Positions 4,181-31,572 of a DNA stretch of 36,125 bases are shown here, in pieces. A program made the translations under genes and the position numbers. Below the pieces are notes generated by a model. It was not told where the DNA came from. It made no database searches and worked only from the letters and a program-made list of their open reading frames with translations. Within the stretch, counting starts at the first letter, position 1. Each line of letters starts with the position of its first letter. The stretch is from a virus: IMG/VR virus record IMGVR_UViG_3300012357_000009, positions 1-36,125 of that record. One strand, 5' to 3'.

Positions 4181-7100
4181 GTGATTGACATACCGGATGC
4201 AGGCGAAATTAAGGCGAAAATAACAATAGAATACGATCCATCAGGGGTTGAGGCGGCAAAGAAAGACCTTGCCAGCCTTGCCGATATCGGAGGTGGTGCC
4301 GGTGACAGCCTGAGCAGTGCGGGTGATGAGCTTGCAAACTTTGGAGACAAGGCTGCGAAGGGGGCGGAGGGCGCTCAGACATTTAACGCTGCTCTCTCTG
4401 AACTCCCAAAGATGGCTGAGAGTGGCACAGAATCCATTGCGAGCATGAATGATGCGCTCTCCGAGAGTCCGAAAGCCTTCGAGGATACAGGTACGGCGGC
4501 TGAAGAGACAGCATCCAAATTACAAAAAGTCGCACAGCCGATGCAAGTACTTACTGAGCACGCTCAAACAATGGCAGACCGGGTAAGTGCAGCCGCAGAT
4601 AATATGTCTGTCTTCCAGAATGCGCTTGATGACCCTTTTCCATTCCAGATGATCAACAGTCATTTGAGCGAAAGCGGACAATCCTGGAATGATTTCACCT
4701 CATCCATCGGCAATGAGAACACAGCCTTGCTTGAGGGTATGGGGCATACGGGGATGAGTGCCGAAGGGTTGCTCGGCCAAATGAGCGGAAGTTTCCAAAG
4801 TGCAGGGAAAAGTATCTCAGATTCTATTAATTGGGACACCGTAGGGCCTCCAACCGATTTCGCTGCCGAGTGGAGCAAAGTCGGTGACACATTGGTTCAA
4901 ACAGGACACGCCGCTGAAGGTGCTGGTAGCGCTATAGGGAAAGCAGGAAAAGCATCGAGTGCATGGTGGTCTGGAGAAGCGGAGTCAGTATTCGGTGGTG
5001 GTGGCGTTATGGGTATCCTCAATGATCTTATGATGCCCATGATGGCTGCACAGATGATCGGTATGGCAGTTGGCGCGGTAGGACAGGGAATTTATAATGC
5101 CGCAGTGATCGCTGAAGGCCCAGGCGCTCATGGGATAGGAACGTTTACCGGGGCCATCGATACCATGACCGCATCGGCTGGTAAAGCAGGGCAGTCATTC
5201 TCAGAAAATTTTGGACAAGGGGTGCTCCCCGCTCTGAATGCGGCAAACAGTGTCGCTGCACAAGGAAAGGCTGGGTTTGATTTCTGGGGGAACTTAGGGG
5301 AAGGACTCGGCATGCAATTAGGGATAGTTACCGATCTTGCACAGGTTGCAGGCGGGGCTATCCTGAGCGCGTTTACTGTTGATGGTGCTGGTCAGGGTAT
5401 GCTTGACGCTGGTTCTCACGGACTCGCCAATTATTGGGCGAATTGGACGGGGCAAGCACAGCCGTATCCAGGTCCCACACCGCCAGATCAGATGCAAATT
5501 GCGTATCAGCAACAAATGGCAAATATGCCACGAACGGTGGAAGGCCAAACCATGACGATGAAGACGCAAGCGGGCACACTGCTTGCGGATTCAGTTACCC
5601 CTGCCTATCTCCAAGCGCAGGATGAGTTATCCGCCTCGCAAGCGATTTATCAGCGCGTACAGGCATCCTACAATGCTTCACACCCTATTAACCAGCAACG
5701 CATGCTACAAGAGGCTCAATACCAGGAATATGCAGCACAACAGAACGCTCTCTATCAAAATTACACGGGACAAGGGCCAGGCGCAGGCGCTGCGGGACAA
5801 TCCTCTCCACTGGACTTTTTGACGGGCATGGGGCCAGCCTCAGTAGCAGGGTTGCAGGGGCAAGGTGGTCAAACGTATGGGGACATGATTGGGCAAGGGA
5901 TAAAGGACTTTTTCGGCGGCACTGGCTTTGGTGGAGAAGTCATGCAGTTTCTTACTGGTGCAGGACCTGCAAATACAGCAGGTGGGCAAACGTATGGTCA
6001 GGCTATTGGTGGTGGCATTGGTAGCTTTTTCGGCGGCATGGGTGCAGGCATCGGAGGTTTCTTTGGTGGGCTAGGGCAGGATTTCAATAATCTCATTGGT
6101 GCTGGCGGCGCTACTCCACCTACCACGTCTATGGGTTGTTTCCCATCTGGCACGCTCGTACTGATGGCTGATAACAGCGAACGAGCCATTGAGTCACTTG
6201 AGATCGGGGACCGGGTGAAATCTCATGACGGACCCACGCCTGTTCTTGCCCTGCTCAAACCACCGCCACGGATCGTCTATGAGTTGACCTTCGATGATGG
6301 CAATAGATTACTACTGACCGCTTCGCATCCGATAGCCACTGAGCGAGGATGGAAGTCACTTTCGCCCAGACTGAGTAGGAAGGAGAATCCTGCTCTCGAA
6401 GTCGCAACGCTTCAAGTAGGCGATAGTGTCCACACCTCTGATGGTACCGCGTGCAAACTCTTGGACATAAAGGCACGTAGCGTTGCACAAGTGTATAACA
6501 TCACTGTTGCGGAACCTCATACCTTTTACGCAAACAAGATCCTTGTGCACAACAAAATGGGCGCAATGGCAAGCGACGGCACAGGGAGCGAGAACGTCAG
6601 TCTTTCGCATACCTTCACCGCTACCGTCAATTGGGCTGCAACCGGACTAGAGAAACAGTTTACCGCCGCGGCACAGTGGGCGGAGCAAAATCTTGTTCAT
6701 ACCGCAGTAGCAGCGGCTCAATGGGCGGAACAAAATCTTACTCATATGGCGGTTGCCGCTGCTCAGTGGGCAGAGCAGAACCTTACCCACTCAGCTACGG
6801 CGGCCGCTGAGTGGGCAGAGCAGAACCTTATCCACCCGGCAATAGCAGCGGTACAGTGGGCAGAGCAAGGGCTTGAGCATGATGCGGTAGCGGTTGCTAA
6901 CTGGGCAGAGCAAGGATTAGAGCACTTGTTCACCGGAAAGGCCAGTTGGATTGGTCAAGACCTCAACCATATGTTTACAGCGGTGGCCCAGTGGACTGCA
7001 CAAAATCTGACCCCCTCATTCACGGTGAATCCAAGCGTCACCATGCTTGCGGAAGGCACGTCCAACTTCCCAGGTGGCCCCGCAATCGTCGGAGAGGCAG

Positions 7101-7411
7101 GAACAGAGGTTGTATCACATAACGGGCAATACTCGCTTTTCGATCAAGGGGCAGCGCTGGTCAATCTTCCCTCTGGAGCGAATGTGTATCCGATGCAAGA
7201 TCTGAGCTATTCTCCAACCGCGCCGGTACAGTTTGCCGAAGGAACAGGCGGCCCTGTCATCCCCGTCTCACTTGGTATGAGCGGCAGGGGTGCGAGTATG
7301 CCAGAGTCCGTCAATGTCATTGTCAATCTGGACAGTCAGACATTCCTCTCCGCAATGGGCGCACCATTCGCGCAAACTATACGGGTAGGTATGGGCATGA
7401 GAAGCTTTTAG
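4181..7411 (+). CDS. Tail tape measure protein with internal Hint domain
   Basis: The protein has 1076 residues counted from GTG 4181. The N-terminus (KAKITIEYDPSGVEAAKKDL) and following helical region are typical of tape measure proteins. A hydrophobic stretch, residues about 273-312 (MGILNDLMMPMMAAQMIGMA and onward), could enter the host membrane. Gly-rich repeats near residues 545-640 contain two copies of a GQTYG...FFGG unit. Residues 653-791 form a Hint (intein-like) domain, and residues 808-942 are nine 15-residue repeats. The C-terminus has PAIVGEAGTEVV and a GANVYP-like ending usual in tape measure proteins. The start is uncertain: the near-perfect ribosome site AAAGGAGGTGAT (4174-4185) overlaps GTG 4181 and would instead fit an ATA codon at 4190. 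Tail length would scale with this protein. Confidence 0.85.
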   Translation: MIDIPDAGEIKAKITIEYDPSGVEAAKKDLASLADIGGGAGDSLSSAGDELANFGDKAAKGAEGAQTFNAALSELPKMAESGTESIASMNDALSESPKAFEDTGTAAEETASKLQKVAQPMQVLTEHAQTMADRVSAAADNMSVFQNALDDPFPFQMINSHLSESGQSWNDFTSSIGNENTALLEGMGHTGMSAEGLLGQMSGSFQSAGKSISDSINWDTVGPPTDFAAEWSKVGDTLVQTGHAAEGAGSAIGKAGKASSAWWSGEAESVFGGGGVMGILNDLMMPMMAAQMIGMAVGAVGQGIYNAAVIAEGPGAHGIGTFTGAIDTMTASAGKAGQSFSENFGQGVLPALNAANSVAAQGKAGFDFWGNLGEGLGMQLGIVTDLAQVAGGAILSAFTVDGAGQGMLDAGSHGLANYWANWTGQAQPYPGPTPPDQMQIAYQQQMANMPRTVEGQTMTMKTQAGTLLADSVTPAYLQAQDELSASQAIYQRVQASYNASHPINQQRMLQEAQYQEYAAQQNALYQNYTGQGPGAGAAGQSSPLDFLTGMGPASVAGLQGQGGQTYGDMIGQGIKDFFGGTGFGGEVMQFLTGAGPANTAGGQTYGQAIGGGIGSFFGGMGAGIGGFFGGLGQDFNNLIGAGGATPPTTSMGCFPSGTLVLMADNSERAIESLEIGDRVKSHDGPTPVLALLKPPPRIVYELTFDDGNRLLLTASHPIATERGWKSLSPRLSRKENPALEVATLQVGDSVHTSDGTACKLLDIKARSVAQVYNITVAEPHTFYANKILVHNKMGAMASDGTGSENVSLSHTFTATVNWAATGLEKQFTAAAQWAEQNLVHTAVAAAQWAEQNLTHMAVAAAQWAEQNLTHSATAAAEWAEQNLIHPAIAAVQWAEQGLEHDAVAVANWAEQGLEHLFTGKASWIGQDLNHMFTAVAQWTAQNLTPSFTVNPSVTMLAEGTSNFPGGPAIVGEAGTEVVSHNGQYSLFDQGAALVNLPSGANVYPMQDLSYSPTAPVQFAEGTGGPVIPVSLGMSGRGASMPESVNVIVNLDSQTFLSAMGAPFAQTIRVGMGMRSF
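6137..6553 (+). other. Hint / bacterial intein-like domain inside the tape measure
   Basis: Residues 653-791 of the tape measure open with Cys653 in CFPSGTLVLMADNSERAIES followed by LEIGDRV, the N-terminal splicing motif (block A). The T-x-x-H motif of block B is TASHPIA, with Thr713 and His716. Block F is VYNITVAEPHTFYANK and block G ends ILVHN with His790 and Asn791. There is no homing endonuclease insertion (139 residues in all). The residue after Asn791 is Lys792, not Cys, Ser or Thr, so the standard second transesterification needed for splicing lacks its nucleophile. This is typical of bacterial intein-like domains that cleave rather than splice. Confidence 0.85.
6602..7006 (+). repeat. 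Nine tandem 45-bp (15-residue) repeats in tape measure
   Basis: The repeat register is L-x-H-x-x-x-A-x-x-x-W-x-x-Q-x, for example LTHMAVAAAQWAEQN, LVHTAVAAAQWAEQN and LEHDAVAVANWAEQG. Nine units run from 6602 to 7006 and a decayed tenth follows. The invariant Trp and the alternating hydrophobic residues suggest a repeated strand-turn or amphipathic helix. DNA copies are similar but not identical, so they are not a recent slippage product. Each unit could add a fixed length to the tail ruler. Confidence 0.85.
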
Positions 7412-20280: not shown

Positions 20281-20354
20281 AGCGGGTTGGAGAAGAGGTC
20301 TATCTCGCTAGTCTCATAAATTAGAGAACGCAAGTTCAAATCTTGCACCCGCTC
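20281..20354 (+). tRNA. tRNA with anticodon CAU (Met or modified Ile)
   Basis: All arms fold: acceptor AGCGGGT with ACCCGCT (7 bp), D-stem GAGA/TCTC with a GG-containing loop, anticodon stem CTAGT/ATTAG with loop CTCATAA, five-base variable loop AGAAC, and T-stem GCAAG/CTTGC with loop TTCAAAT. The G15-C48 tertiary pair is possible. The anticodon is CAU, so it is elongator Met, initiator Met or Ile2 after lysidine modification. Position 1-72 is an A-U pair, unlike the usual bacterial initiator. The discriminator base is C, which is unusual for these classes, and no CCA is encoded. It is adjacent to the late terminator. Confidence 0.9.
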
Positions 20355-23816: not shown

Positions 23817-24152
23817 TCACTGCTCCTTTTTCTTGACTGACTTGCCTGTCAGCGCCTCTAACAGCTTGTAGGCCGTGGAGGGTGTCATAGTGATCATCCT
23901 GCCGGTTACAGGACGCCTGATGATGAATTGCTCCAGTTCGCCGTTTGCTGGCTCGTAACTCATCGTATAGAGATGATCGGTGTACGTATGCCGCGTGCTT
24001 GGATCATCCTTCGCCTCTTGTATGATTCGCTCTAGGACCGCCATTTGATCTAGTGAGAAGTCGAATTGTGTTTGTTGGATGAGAAAGGTATAGTCTTCTC
24101 CAATCTCAACAGAATGCTCGGTAGTAGGCGTGCGTGTTAAGAGTCGTTTCAT
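23817..24152 (-). CDS. Hypothetical early protein
   Basis: The frame is open to 24182, but AAAGGA before ATG 24152 favours the shorter protein of 111 residues. It has a beta opening (EHSVEIGEDYTFLIQQTQFD), a long helix (SLDQMAVLERIIQEAKDDPS), a beta segment (LYTMSYEPANGELEQFIIRR) and a helix with TAYKLLEALTG. The C-terminus is basic (KSVKKKEQ). I recognise no family. It lies just downstream, in transcript sense, of the 366-nt structured RNA, so the RNA may act on it in cis. Confidence 0.5.
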   Translation of the reverse strand: MKRLLTRTPTTEHSVEIGEDYTFLIQQTQFDFSLDQMAVLERIIQEAKDDPSTRHTYTDHLYTMSYEPANGELEQFIIRRPVTGRMITMTPSTAYKLLEALTGKSVKKKEQ

Positions 24153-24185
24153 AACAAATTCCTTTCTGGAAACCTCGTGCATTCA

Positions 24186-24552
24186 TGTCAGGGAGGCGCA
24201 TAAAGTTGCCCGAAGGCAGAGCGTTTTTGATGGGAACGCTCTAAACCCCACTACTCAGCGTTGCTGCTTTGTAGGTAAAGTGGGCCTCGACAAGGTTAGC
24301 GAGCGGTACTTTCTCCTGAGCACTGACTTAACCCTCGTACATCTGTTTAACTCAGGAGTTCTAGGGCTTCAGGCTGGCCGCGCACCCAAAGGTAGGAACT
24401 CAAACGCTTCTCGCTAACGTAGTTTGAACTTGGCTGATTGTATCCAGGCAATACGTTCAAACTGAGTCTGGTCAGGTGAGCTTGTAACAGCCTGAGCCAA
24501 AGCGCTCAACAGTTTGCAAGCCCCTGGTTTTTAAACCAGAGGGTCCCTGACG
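24186..24552 (-). ncRNA. Candidate ~366-nt structured RNA with closing helix
   Basis: The whole stretch is closed by GTCAGGGA (24187-24194) with TCCCTGAC (24544-24551), 8 bp. Inside are further perfect stems: 24218-24225 with 24235-24242 (8 bp), 24247-24252 with 24279-24284, a long-range 9-bp stem 24295-24303 with 24410-24418, nested 24313-24320 with 24351-24358 (8 bp), and 24421-24429 with 24455-24463 (9 bp). Pairs TTGGCT (24430-24435) with AGCCAA (24495-24500), TCAGG with CCTGA (24472-24476, 24491-24495), and GCTTG with CAAGC (24480-24484, 24517-24521) cross one another, hinting at pseudoknots. A C(UUCG)G tetraloop appears only on the minus strand (24207-24218), and flanking genes also run minus, so I assign that strand. 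No convincing protein frame exists. Confidence 0.65.
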
Positions 24553-24750
24553 CTATACCTCTACAAATGTCCTTCCGATACGATCCATCACCTGCTTCAA
24601 TGCCGATTCATGGTCACCCAGCCAGTAGAACACGGGTTGCACCATGCCCATAAACTTCTCGCGCCTCACGTCCGGGTCTGACTCCTGCACAATAGTCTCA
24701 AGGCATTGTGCCGTGTGCTCAAGGTAACGTACCAAATCTTCTGTACTCAT
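24553..24750 (-). CDS. Small helical early protein
   Basis: The frame extends to 24921, but AGGAGGTGAAGGT before ATG 24750 fixes the start (65 residues). It is entirely helical and acidic: STEDLVRYLEHTAQCLETIV, SDPDVRREKFMGMVQPVFYW and HESALKQVMDRIGRTFVE. No family is recognised. Its ATG overlaps the stop of the preceding gene (ATGA). Its stop lies directly against the closing helix of the structured RNA. Confidence 0.55.
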   Translation of the reverse strand: MSTEDLVRYLEHTAQCLETIVQESDPDVRREKFMGMVQPVFYWLGDHESALKQVMDRIGRTFVEV

Positions 24751-24995
24751 ACCTTCACCTCCTGCTTGATGTAATCCTGCACATTCAGACCTGCCCACAG
24801 AGCGAGGGTTGCCATTGTATGAACACTCATAGCGTGCGTGCCTTGCCCTCTCTGCCAGCGCTTGCGTCTGCTCTCCGAAGCAACCCCGTACACGCCTGTT
24901 TGGTGATGCACGCCAAACCACGTGAGGTTGCGTGACTGTCGCACCTGGTCTAGTACTGCCATAAATTGGACAATATCAAAATAGCCATTGATCAT
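24747..24995 (-). CDS. XRE-like DNA-binding protein
   Basis: The frame is open to 25028, but GGAGA before ATG 24995 favours 82 residues. The central part (LDQVRQSRNLTWFGVHHQTG, VYGVASESRRKRWQRGQGTH, AMSVHTMATLALWAGLNVQD) matches the layout of XRE-type HTH domains in which a W-x-x-V-x-x-x-T-G-V is followed by a basic recognition helix and a W-A-G-L last helix. It resembles the small HTH proteins common in actinobacterial and Chloroflexota phages. A regulator of early genes is likely. It is coupled by ATGA to the next gene. Confidence 0.6.
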   Translation of the reverse strand: MINGYFDIVQFMAVLDQVRQSRNLTWFGVHHQTGVYGVASESRRKRWQRGQGTHAMSVHTMATLALWAGLNVQDYIKQEVKV

Positions 24996-29874: not shown

Positions 29875-30171
29875 ATGCCAATAGAGATCAACGGGGTAAA
29901 ACTTTATGGCCCTGCTGAGACTGCGAAAATCCTGGGAACCGATGTCAATATGTTGCGTTATTATCGCAACGTCGGATACATCGAGGGGACGGTCATGGCG
30001 ACAGCGACTTACTACACAATGGAACAGATTGAAGCTGGACGAAAAGTCATCGCAGCACCGAAAAAACGAGGGCCAAAGAATCGGAACAAGCGGGATGAAG
30101 AGGACACCACCTCATCGGTGACGTATCCGTCTTCTTCCTACAGCGCGGCGGCACTGGGAGCGACGGCGTGA
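29875..30171 (+). CDS. MerR/excisionase-like HTH protein, C-terminus read into IS end
   Basis: The protein has 98 residues; GAAGGAGACC precedes ATG 29875. Residues 1-62 form a winged helix-turn-helix (LYGPAETAKILGTDVNMLRY followed by YRNVGYIEGTVMATATYYTM). A basic linker KKRGPKNRNKRDEEDTT follows. The final part (SSVTYPSSSYSAAALGATA) overlaps the end of the IS110-family element, and its composition (Ser/Ala-rich) differs from the core, so the natural C-terminus may have been replaced by the insertion. The gene may have been longer or different before insertion. A DNA-binding regulator or excisionase is the likely role. Confidence 0.6.
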   Translation: MPIEINGVKLYGPAETAKILGTDVNMLRYYRNVGYIEGTVMATATYYTMEQIEAGRKVIAAPKKRGPKNRNKRDEEDTTSSVTYPSSSYSAAALGATA

Positions 30172-31572
30172 GTGCGATGCGTGCGACCAATGGCACGCAA
30201 ATGCTTTTCAACGCTGTAGAGTTCCGGCGCTGGCAGATCGCTTCCGGGTGGCAGTCCGGTAAGCAGATCGGCGTCCTTTTTCAAGAGGCGATACAAGAGG
30301 CCAATAAACTGACCCGCGATCCGTCCGATCACGCGGGTTTTGCCGACGTATTCACCACGTTTGACATCGAAGGGGCACATACGGGCGACCAGAGGGTCGT
30401 AAATGGCCTTCCACGCTGCGTCATACGTGACCATGTTGATGACAGACATGTAGATAGCAGATCTGGCCTGCTTGTTTCCGGCCCTGTCCCGTTTGCTAGA
30501 GTCAAAGGTCGTGCCAGTCTGGCTATGCCTGATGCCCCAGCCGAGAGACAGTCGAAGCTTACCGATGGTGGCAAAATTGGCAATATTACCGATAGCCGCA
30601 AGCAATACGGCAGCGGTCACAGGTCCGACACCGGTAAAGGACAACAAGATCTGTCCTTCTCGACTGTTTGCCAGGATATCGGTAATCTCGCTTTCCAGAC
30701 GGCTGATATGTGTCTGATGCAAGCGCCATTCAGCGATCAACTGTTCTTGCTCAATGAGCAACGAGCGGCGGCGGCTGATATCCTTTGTGCCAATAGTGAC
30801 GCGGGACAGTTCCTGCAACTGTGCGAGGCCGCCACGCGATGGATAGCGCCACTGACGAGCTGCGCACAGATCATCGAGACTGGCACGGGCAACATCTTGA
30901 GGCGTGGGGAATTTCTCACGGATCGCCAGGGCTGCAAGCGTGTTCGGCTTTTTGAAGACTTGCGTGAATTCGGGGAACAGTTCATCGCAAATCGCAGTGA
31001 GCTTATTTTCTCGTCTGACGGTCTCCCTGGTCAATTCGCTGTGGTGTTTGACCAGGCCGCGCAACATAGTGGCGACTGGACTGGGCGGGAGAAGTCGGTG
31101 CACTCTCTCTTGTTCATCAGTCACCGGGGCGCGGCGCTCTATCTGGTTATAGAGTCGCAATCCAAGAGCCTGAGCATCACGTCTATCGCTTTTCTCTTGC
31201 CCATATCGCTTCATGGCCTGGATGCGATACAAGGTGACGCCGTGCTCTTGAAGGAATTGTTCCAATGCTGCTCCATAGTGTCCTGTTCGCTCCATGAGGA
31301 CGTGAGCATTCTTGAGACGACTCACATGGATCTTGATGGCATGCAGGAGCTTCTCGAAGCCTTCCCGGCTGTTGGAGAATGCGAAGGCAGGGCAGCGGCT
31401 AAAAACCTTGTGGTGGTCCAGTAGAGGGGTAGAGATGAGACCTGCATAGTGGCCGGTCTTGCCGATATCTACGCCGACGTAGATTGTATCAACCATATCG
31501 ACTCATCCTTTCAAACTGTAGAGGAGGAAGAGGGACAGACGGAGCGGAAGCGAGGCCAATCACCGATGAGGT
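30108..31572 (-). mobile_element. IS110-family insertion element (ends uncertain)
   Basis: The transposase at 30138-31496 is flanked by a perfect 13-bp inverted repeat: ACCTCATCGGTGA (30108-30120) and TCACCGATGAGGT (31560-31572). Those limits give 1465 bp, but they could be subterminal. If the element carries a leader RNA, as IS110 members do, its left end may lie further out, near 31735. No target duplication is visible, in line with IS110 behaviour. The right end overlaps the 3' part of the HTH gene. Confidence 0.6.
30138..31496 (-). CDS. IS110-family transposase (DEDD-RuvC plus Tnp20)
   Basis: The protein has 452 residues with AAGGATGAG before ATG 31496. The N-terminal DEDD (RuvC-like) domain shows Asp10 in IYVGVDIGKTGHYA, Glu69 in HVLMERTGHYGAAL and Asp104/Asp107 in KSDRRDAQALGLRL. 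A helical linker follows. The C-terminal Tnp20 domain is recognisable from LLSFTGVGPVTAAVLLAAIG, LRLSLGWGIRHSQTGTTFDS (Ser325 probably catalytic) and AGNKQARSAIYMSVINMV. It would cut and join DNA using an RNA guide encoded by its own element, as described for IS110 recombinases. The length is above the usual 330-400 residues. All catalytic residues seem intact, so it may be active. Confidence 0.9.
   Translation of the reverse strand: MVDTIYVGVDIGKTGHYAGLISTPLLDHHKVFSRCPAFAFSNSREGFEKLLHAIKIHVSRLKNAHVLMERTGHYGAALEQFLQEHGVTLYRIQAMKRYGQEKSDRRDAQALGLRLYNQIERRAPVTDEQERVHRLLPPSPVATMLRGLVKHHSELTRETVRRENKLTAICDELFPEFTQVFKKPNTLAALAIREKFPTPQDVARASLDDLCAARQWRYPSRGGLAQLQELSRVTIGTKDISRRRSLLIEQEQLIAEWRLHQTHISRLESEITDILANSREGQILLSFTGVGPVTAAVLLAAIGNIANFATIGKLRLSLGWGIRHSQTGTTFDSSKRDRAGNKQARSAIYMSVINMVTYDAAWKAIYDPLVARMCPFDVKRGEYVGKTRVIGRIAGQFIGLLYRLLKKDADLLTGLPPGSDLPAPELYSVEKHLRAIGRTHRTHAVAPSAAAL

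Follow-up and report, generated by a model that had tools for sequence, protein, structure and literature searches.

The viral DNA analysed here (IMG/VR record IMGVR_UViG_3300012357_000009, positions 1 to 36,125; the whole 36,125-nt stretch is called the window below) carries on its minus strand a HEARO guide RNA, a member of the class used by the Cas9-like nuclease IscB. It is a standalone omega-RNA, that is, an omega-RNA without an adjacent nuclease gene. What is unusual about it is its anatomy and setting: IscB is lacking, a second domain follows on the 3′ side, and the whole is positioned at the start codon of a gene. The best explanation is probably that the RNA belongs to a non-autonomous element of the IscB/IS200-IS605 type, whose omega-RNA would act, if at all, with IscB in trans, so that the element homes into element-free alleles. 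This explanation is supported by the identity of the RNA, its recurrence, its boundaries, the targeting of start codons, empty sites in bacterial relatives and the retention of the fold.

A known RNA class on the minus strand

An Rfam search (cmscan) places the full-length HEARO / omega-RNA scaffold (RF02033, model positions 1-211 of 211) at 24551-24275 on the minus strand with a score of 125.3 bits (E = 9e-26), which exceeds the gathering score of 83 and thus the threshold for membership. The paired regions are mostly intact in the Rfam alignment, and in P1 the partner of the 5′ strand GUCAGGGA is CCUGAC, some 70 nt further downstream. An earlier note on this DNA had seen no hallmark of a known RNA here and had suggested that it may be a new class of large RNA, comparable in setting to phage RNAs such as GOLLD and ROOL; the size and structure of the RNA and its place in an early phage region are in keeping with this. 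The Rfam search that the note itself suggested finds the known class HEARO, and by the note's own reckoning a match to a known RNA tells against the proposal. In the window, only HEARO and tRNA reach their Rfam gathering scores, with no such match for GOLLD, ROOL, tmRNA, RNase P or group I introns, and a permissive Rfam search of 24000-24800 returned only HEARO and a miRNA model at chance level. With HEARO matched over its full length, we regard a GOLLD- or ROOL-like class as extremely improbable. The tRNA is an ordinary tRNA-Met (CAT) at 20281-20354 on the plus strand, called by both ARAGORN and Rfam.

Much of the structural description in that note holds. The leftward early region does hold a large structured RNA here and no protein gene. 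Internal pairing within the stretch is indeed rich, with eight perfect 8-bp inverted pairs. This is above chance: mononucleotide shuffles averaged 0.97 such pairs (1 of 500 reached 8), and 199 other 367-nt phage windows averaged 1.96 (4.5% reached 8). The UUCG loop noted on the minus strand is that of a hairpin, TGCC-TTCG-GGCA, at 24207-24218. The suspected pseudoknots are likely: HEARO has a known one, and the 3′ domain contains another that covaries. Both strands of the stretch fold somewhat better than shuffled controls (z = -2.21 for 24153-24551 on the minus strand, z = -2.37 for 24186-24552 on the plus strand).

Only part of the proposed terminal helix (24187-24194/24544-24551) survives. 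The 8-bp complementarity is perfect, but the helix itself is not conserved: of the 13 elements compared, the window alone shows the long-range 8-bp match, which shrinks to 3-6 nt in the remaining 12. It is the HEARO fold, and not this helix, that covariation supports, and the helix was rejected as marking the ends of the element because it is not conserved. Inverted repeats of the HEARO 5′ end were also missing downstream of IscB in IscB-linked viral loci, repeat arrays excepted.

Absence of an adjacent IscB gene

The name of the HEARO family implies an HNH endonuclease ORF (IscB or IsrB) directly downstream. Such an ORF is absent from that position, where the neighbouring gene has no family match, and the IscB family model PF14239 has no match in the 36,125-base virus record. 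The model works, as it matches 33 of 47 other viral records chosen by a pattern for the HEARO 3′ end, 35 of which carry HEARO (E of at most 0.001, with 34 exceeding the cut-off). The virus record may be a fragment, so IscB could still sit in the complete phage genome.

Two other arrangements of HEARO were seen in viral sequences. Virus record G019 has a tandem pair of HEARO RNAs (L116, 633-863 and 895-1116, minus strand) that lack the 3′ domain of the window family, and no IscB was found in this 39.9-kb record. In the viral contigs L060-L074 (e.g. L005, L019, L021, L023 and L042), HEARO and IscB are followed by repeats with a period of about 71 nt, each unit being complementary to the 5′ end of HEARO; these are CRISPR-like arrays beside IscB.

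Anatomy of the element and its 3′ domain

The inserted element as a whole spans 399 bp (24153-24551, minus strand). Its ends were set by homology to 18 sharp-ended copies in one bacterial genome, G082, and to relatives with empty sites. The limits proposed in the earlier note (24186-24552) fall about 34 nt short at the low-coordinate end. An alternative right end at the ATGA of 24183-24186, which would give an element of 24187-24551, was dropped because homology extends to 24154 and the G082 copies end at the start codon. At 399 bp there is no room for TnpA or IscB, and the element encodes neither.

Downstream of the HEARO scaffold (24275-24551), and likewise on the minus strand, lies a structured 3′ domain. 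It begins with hairpin a (CTAC..GTAG, 24251-24274), in which three of three pairs are changed on both sides in relatives and 100% of the alignment cells are paired. A pseudoknot follows at 24219-24249, supported by covariation, in which GGGG at 24246-24249 pairs with CCC at 24232-24234 in the loop of the stem GAGCGTT/AACGCTC (24219-24241). This central hairpin is paired in 96.7% of cells. For the pseudoknot itself (the GGG before the central hairpin with the loop CCC), 42 of 48 possible pairs form in 16 distinct combinations, counted from strings transcribed by hand; shuffles gave a mean of 35.5 pairs, and 26 of 20,000 were as high as 42. Hairpin c (24207-24218) is the TGCC-TTCG-GGCA hairpin described above, and both of its sides change in relatives, for example to CCCC-GCAA-GGGG. 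The terminal hairpin (CCTC..GAGG, 24173-24196), identified in alignment A1, resembles the subterminal palindromes of the IS200/IS605 type and is like a hairpin in IscB-bearing elements. The last feature is a Shine-Dalgarno sequence borne by the element itself, AGAAAGGA at 24160-24167, with an anti-Shine-Dalgarno duplex energy of -5.6.

Taken as a whole, the 3′ domain has 23 predicted pairs, 13 of them altered on both sides, and a covariation score of 0.424, compared with 0.185 for shuffled and at most 0.137 for slid controls. The HEARO fold also shows compensatory changes, in 37 of 54 predicted pairs among 17 copies that lack IscB, some of which may predate the loss of IscB. Eighteen of 20 scanned loci pass the HEARO gathering score over the full model.

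A short version of the pseudoknot hairpin (GGGTTT..CGTTCCCAYCAAAAACG) was seen apart from HEARO in unrelated viral contigs. An exact search of viral contigs for the 3′ hairpin found nothing, and a looser one found eight contigs with the short hairpin only and no element. Sites include L331 8802-8830 (minus), L332 6723-6751 (plus), L333 5543-5571 (minus), L334 3124-3144 (minus) and L337 4035-4103 (minus). In L332 and L333 the hairpin has drum RNA and tRNAs nearby, and in L331, L334 and L337 it directly precedes a Shine-Dalgarno sequence and an ATG. It may represent a small phage RNA motif not yet described.

Recurrence of the element in Ktedonobacteria

A genome search with a pattern for the HEARO 3′ end returned six loci, among them loci in Ktedonobacter sp. 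SOSP1-85, which has 54 HEARO and 51 PF14239 matches, and in a Ktedonobacteraceae MAG. When window positions 24187-24551 were used as the query against 47 genomes of the class to which Ktedonobacter sp. SOSP1-85 belongs, 18 of them matched. Several of these matches continue beyond the HEARO end into the 3′ domain, and the domain common to these loci ends at the Shine-Dalgarno sequence and start codon of unrelated genes. By reading of their translations and not by family searches, the downstream genes were named DnaA-like (L180), sugar nucleotidyltransferase-like (L160), NrdR-like (L170), LmbE-like (L183) and XRE-like (L168), among others. L170 and L172b hold the 3′ domain only, and L172a has a truncated HEARO.

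Genome G082 contains the clearest series. Eighteen of 20 fetched copies are at least 90.6% identical (14 at least 98%, counting the reference copy) and have identical ends: each starts at the first G of HEARO and finishes ...CCAGAAAGGATTTCTT, after which comes ATGG. The 5′ flanks, which occupy the guide position, differ among all of the G082 copies.

To these 20 elements from G082 we added 15 hand-picked from elsewhere. The four bases immediately 3′ of the 35 elements are ATGG (26), ATGA (6), GTGA (2) or GTGG (1), and therefore conform to RTGR in every case; RTG was demanded when the ends were set, and the G082 end was fixed independently by alignment. In 18 of the 35 (12 of 20 from G082) this RTG is the first ATG or GTG of an ORF of at least 70 amino acids, compared with 3.4% of 842 control RTGR sites. 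Under this strict test the other 17 are not at a clear ORF start. When the flanks are joined as if the element were removed, a native Shine-Dalgarno sequence is placed at the correct distance from the start codon, and its energy is -5 kcal/mol or lower in 17 of 35 joined flanks versus 11% of 525 control windows (Mann-Whitney p = 3e-5). The 5′ boundary of L168 used in the flank and Shine-Dalgarno tables is about 14 nt too far downstream (the Rfam start is 1792), which worked against this result. The Shine-Dalgarno sequence borne by the element reaches -3 or lower in 27 of 35 and is weaker in the other 8, including all four tabulated copies from G083. In these bacterial relatives, insertion at start codons, recent multiplication and conservation of the RNA without IscB are all shown.

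These data bear on whether the window element is a functionless remnant, that is, an IscB element whose gene was lost after it landed in the phage. Omega-RNAs normally adjoin IscB, and the gene is missing from the record. A one-off relic would nevertheless not be expected to share a 3′ domain with other elements. The standalone form is a repeated family with its own conserved and covarying 3′ domain and with recent amplification to 18 near-identical copies, and many HEARO RNAs linked to IscB score no higher than the one in the window. We consider such a remnant unlikely.

Empty sites in bacterial relatives

Twenty joined flanks were used as queries against the 47 genomes, and eight sites were examined. 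At each of the eight there was at least one alignment that crosses the junction, with 20 such alignments in all. The cleanest are at L243, where three element-free genomes have the identical 12 bases 5′ of the start codon, and at L244, where the empty site AGAGAGGAGCCTCCTC|ATGGCG is matched by AGAGAGGAGCTTCCTC|ATGGCG. At L180, the DnaA-like gene, and at L160 (seven genomes), the start of the gene is intact and contiguous in the element-free sequences. At several empty sites the alignment of the upstream flank is loose or contains small gaps, and the exactness of insertion therefore rests on the clean ones, where neither target duplication nor deletion was seen. The empty sites thus show that in these relatives the element is inserted between the native Shine-Dalgarno sequence of a gene and its start codon. 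Precise insertion beside a fixed short motif without target duplication is accordingly found in the bacterial relatives (eight sites, RTGR flank).

The same sites help to weigh a second function, in which the RNA is a domesticated cis-acting leader whose 3′ pseudoknot and Shine-Dalgarno sequence control translation of the downstream gene, either in the manner of a riboswitch or through repression by an RNA-binding protein such as IscB. The 3′ domain does end at a Shine-Dalgarno sequence and ATG in most copies, and in viral contigs L331, L334 and L337 the pseudoknot hairpin alone lies close before such a pair. The downstream genes are nevertheless unrelated between copies and the sites are empty in relatives, which fits mobility and not a conserved regulon. 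A leader function of this kind seems somewhat unlikely. It is compatible with a mobile element, and both can hold.

IscB and transposase genes in relatives

The elements that do carry IscB share features with the standalone family. They have a similar CCCC..GGGG terminal hairpin, and in 8 of 19 loci, those with a readable end, they stop before ATGG, GTGG or ATGA. Model R1 gives weak matches near the ends of IscB-bearing elements, and near IscB 3′ ends in several other genomes. The window scores 87.3 bits with R1 by construction, because it belongs to the training set. IscB is present in 31 of the 47 genomes of the class, and all 10 genomes with an R1 match of at least 54 bits carry it (hypergeometric P = 0.0086, with a threshold chosen post hoc and genome size as a confounder). 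The Y1 transposase family PF01797 occurs in 41 of the 47 genomes, in no case tied to these elements; G090 has a 54-bit element match and no PF01797 match at threshold.

The phage locus

In the phage, the element lies between two minus-strand genes that have no family match. The upstream gene (65 amino acids, 24553-24750) ends with the stop codon TAG 1 nt before HEARO. From its position relative to the HEARO 5′ end, the presumed guide is the 17-nt sequence ATTTGTAGAGGTATAGC (24552-24568, minus strand), which comprises the 3′ end and stop codon of this gene and holds a native Shine-Dalgarno sequence, AGAGG, at 24558-24562. A guide length of 16-17 nt is given in PMC9640706. The downstream gene (111 amino acids, 23817-24152) begins with ATGA (24149-24152, minus strand; ATGAAA in context), which would serve both as its start codon and, by analogy with the RTGR 3′ of all 35 elements, as the target-adjacent motif (TAM). 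Searches of Pfam and PHROGs with this gene as a 121-aa ORF, and of NCBIfam with the 111-aa form, found no family; the start of the longer ORF, at 24182, falls inside the element, and 24152 is the likely start. Joining the flanks yields GACATTTGTAGAGGTATAGC|ATGAAACGA, in which the stop of the 65-aa gene and a Shine-Dalgarno sequence 6 nt before the ATG lead into the 111-aa gene. As a sequence, the phage ATGA agrees with the TAMs described for IsrB (NTGA, NTG and NTGG) and OgeuIscB (NNRR) in the relevant portions of PMC9581776 and PMC9640706.

Insertion and mobility in the phage itself are suggested by ends that were placed by homology to the bacterial copies. We found no viral relatives of either flanking gene (one query ORF was partly out of frame), no empty site for this locus among the viral relatives searched, and HEARO in none of eight phage records related via another gene. 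Searches of phage and plasmid collections returned no useful match. The relatives of the element by themselves suggest that the host of the phage belongs to the Ktedonobacteria.

The presumed guide has no second match in the window at up to three mismatches. An exact 18-nt match to guide plus ATG occurs in one viral contig, in an unrelated structural gene, where one or two are expected by chance if the collection is taken to be roughly 60 Gb. A phage-borne, nuclease-less guide RNA might be a decoy or a weapon that loads host IscB in order to block it or to redirect it at competing phages, and this contig, unrelated to the window, does carry the 17-nt guide followed by ATGGCA. The match is nevertheless about what chance provides in a collection of this size, and, as in the bacterial copies, the guide is no more than the native sequence beside the element. 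We judge a decoy or weapon very unlikely.

Some further features of the window and a related phage deserve mention. The related phage has a structured-looking early intergenic stretch (L110 7295-7480, plus strand) with a start like the HEARO 5′ domain (GTCAAGCCACCC..GGCTTGAC), for which Rfam gave no match. It also encodes an IS110-family transposase that is 49% identical to that of the window, an RNA-guided transposase at 30138-31496 on the minus strand (NF033542, 136.8 bits, just below the cut-off of 140). At 4181-7411 on the plus strand, the window encodes a long tape-measure-like protein with an internal intein/Hint-like domain (TIGR01443, above cut-off).

A model for trans-acting homing

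PATEs are non-autonomous relatives of IS200/IS605 elements that lack a transposase gene, have subterminal hairpins, make no target duplication and insert at a fixed short motif. The family of the window element has all four of these features in common with PATEs and differs from them in carrying a guide RNA and its own Shine-Dalgarno sequence; mobilisation by TnpA would be the counterpart here. The original insertion was perhaps made by a Y1 TnpA supplied in trans. What it would have inserted is a standalone HEARO omega-RNA together with a structured 3′ domain and its own Shine-Dalgarno sequence, and it would have landed at an early phage gene, between that gene's native Shine-Dalgarno sequence and its ATG. 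On this reading the sequence 5′ of the element is the guide, and the target-adjacent motif is the start codon, ATGAAA, at the opposite end. Because guide and ATGA are contiguous only in the element-free allele, that allele would be the target and the occupied one would not. If the guide RNA acts at all, it presumably acts with IscB supplied in trans: host IscB would load the RNA and cut the guide plus RTGR in element-free copies, and the cut might lead to the element being copied in, by homing or retention. The Shine-Dalgarno sequence borne by the element would keep the interrupted gene translated.

A bolder version can be put forward tentatively, in which a nuclease-less guide-RNA element parasitises host IscB, homes into start codons and rides phages between Ktedonobacteria. 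Insertion would swap the native Shine-Dalgarno sequence for a pseudoknot-controlled one, and so translation of the captured gene might come under the control of the element, possibly in an IscB-dependent manner.

Omega-RNAs that stand alone and function with IscB in trans were reportedly described by Altae-Tran and colleagues in 2021. Such RNAs working with IscB are mentioned in the part of PMC9581776 that concerns them, and so the principle is known. Going by that mention, they resemble the window omega-RNA in lacking an adjacent nuclease gene, and the present case differs in its phage setting, its organization as a 399-bp element, its covarying 3′ domain and its insertion at a start codon. 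Compared with the IscB omega-RNA as portrayed in PMC9755519 and PMC9640706, the window RNA has the full-length scaffold and a 5′ flank in guide position; here, however, a 3′ domain and the start codon of an ordinary gene replace IscB. There is also a likeness to the TnpB gene drive of IS200/IS605 elements in plasmids, where, according to the pertinent text of PMC11870625, the guide records the insertion site and element-free copies would therefore be cut; in that system the element itself encodes the nuclease, whereas here it would act in trans. Our literature search, whose coverage stopped short of Weinberg 2009 and Altae-Tran 2021, found no account of HEARO/IscB elements at start codons, of the form with the 3′ domain or of its presence in phages. 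Standalone omega-RNAs are thus already known, and the start-codon form with a 3′ domain appears to be new.

Implications

If the proposed explanation is true, a HEARO match that an annotation pipeline reports with no IscB beside it can be a genuine element and need not be a relic. The element would be a natural, testable case of trans-acting RNA-guided homing, and also of a mobile element altering how the genes it lands on are translated. Its use of start codons as landing sites would follow from their double role, since the same bases also serve as the target-adjacent motif. OMEGA guide RNAs would then spread as a two-part system, with the nuclease in one place and self-propagating guide elements in many, phages included.
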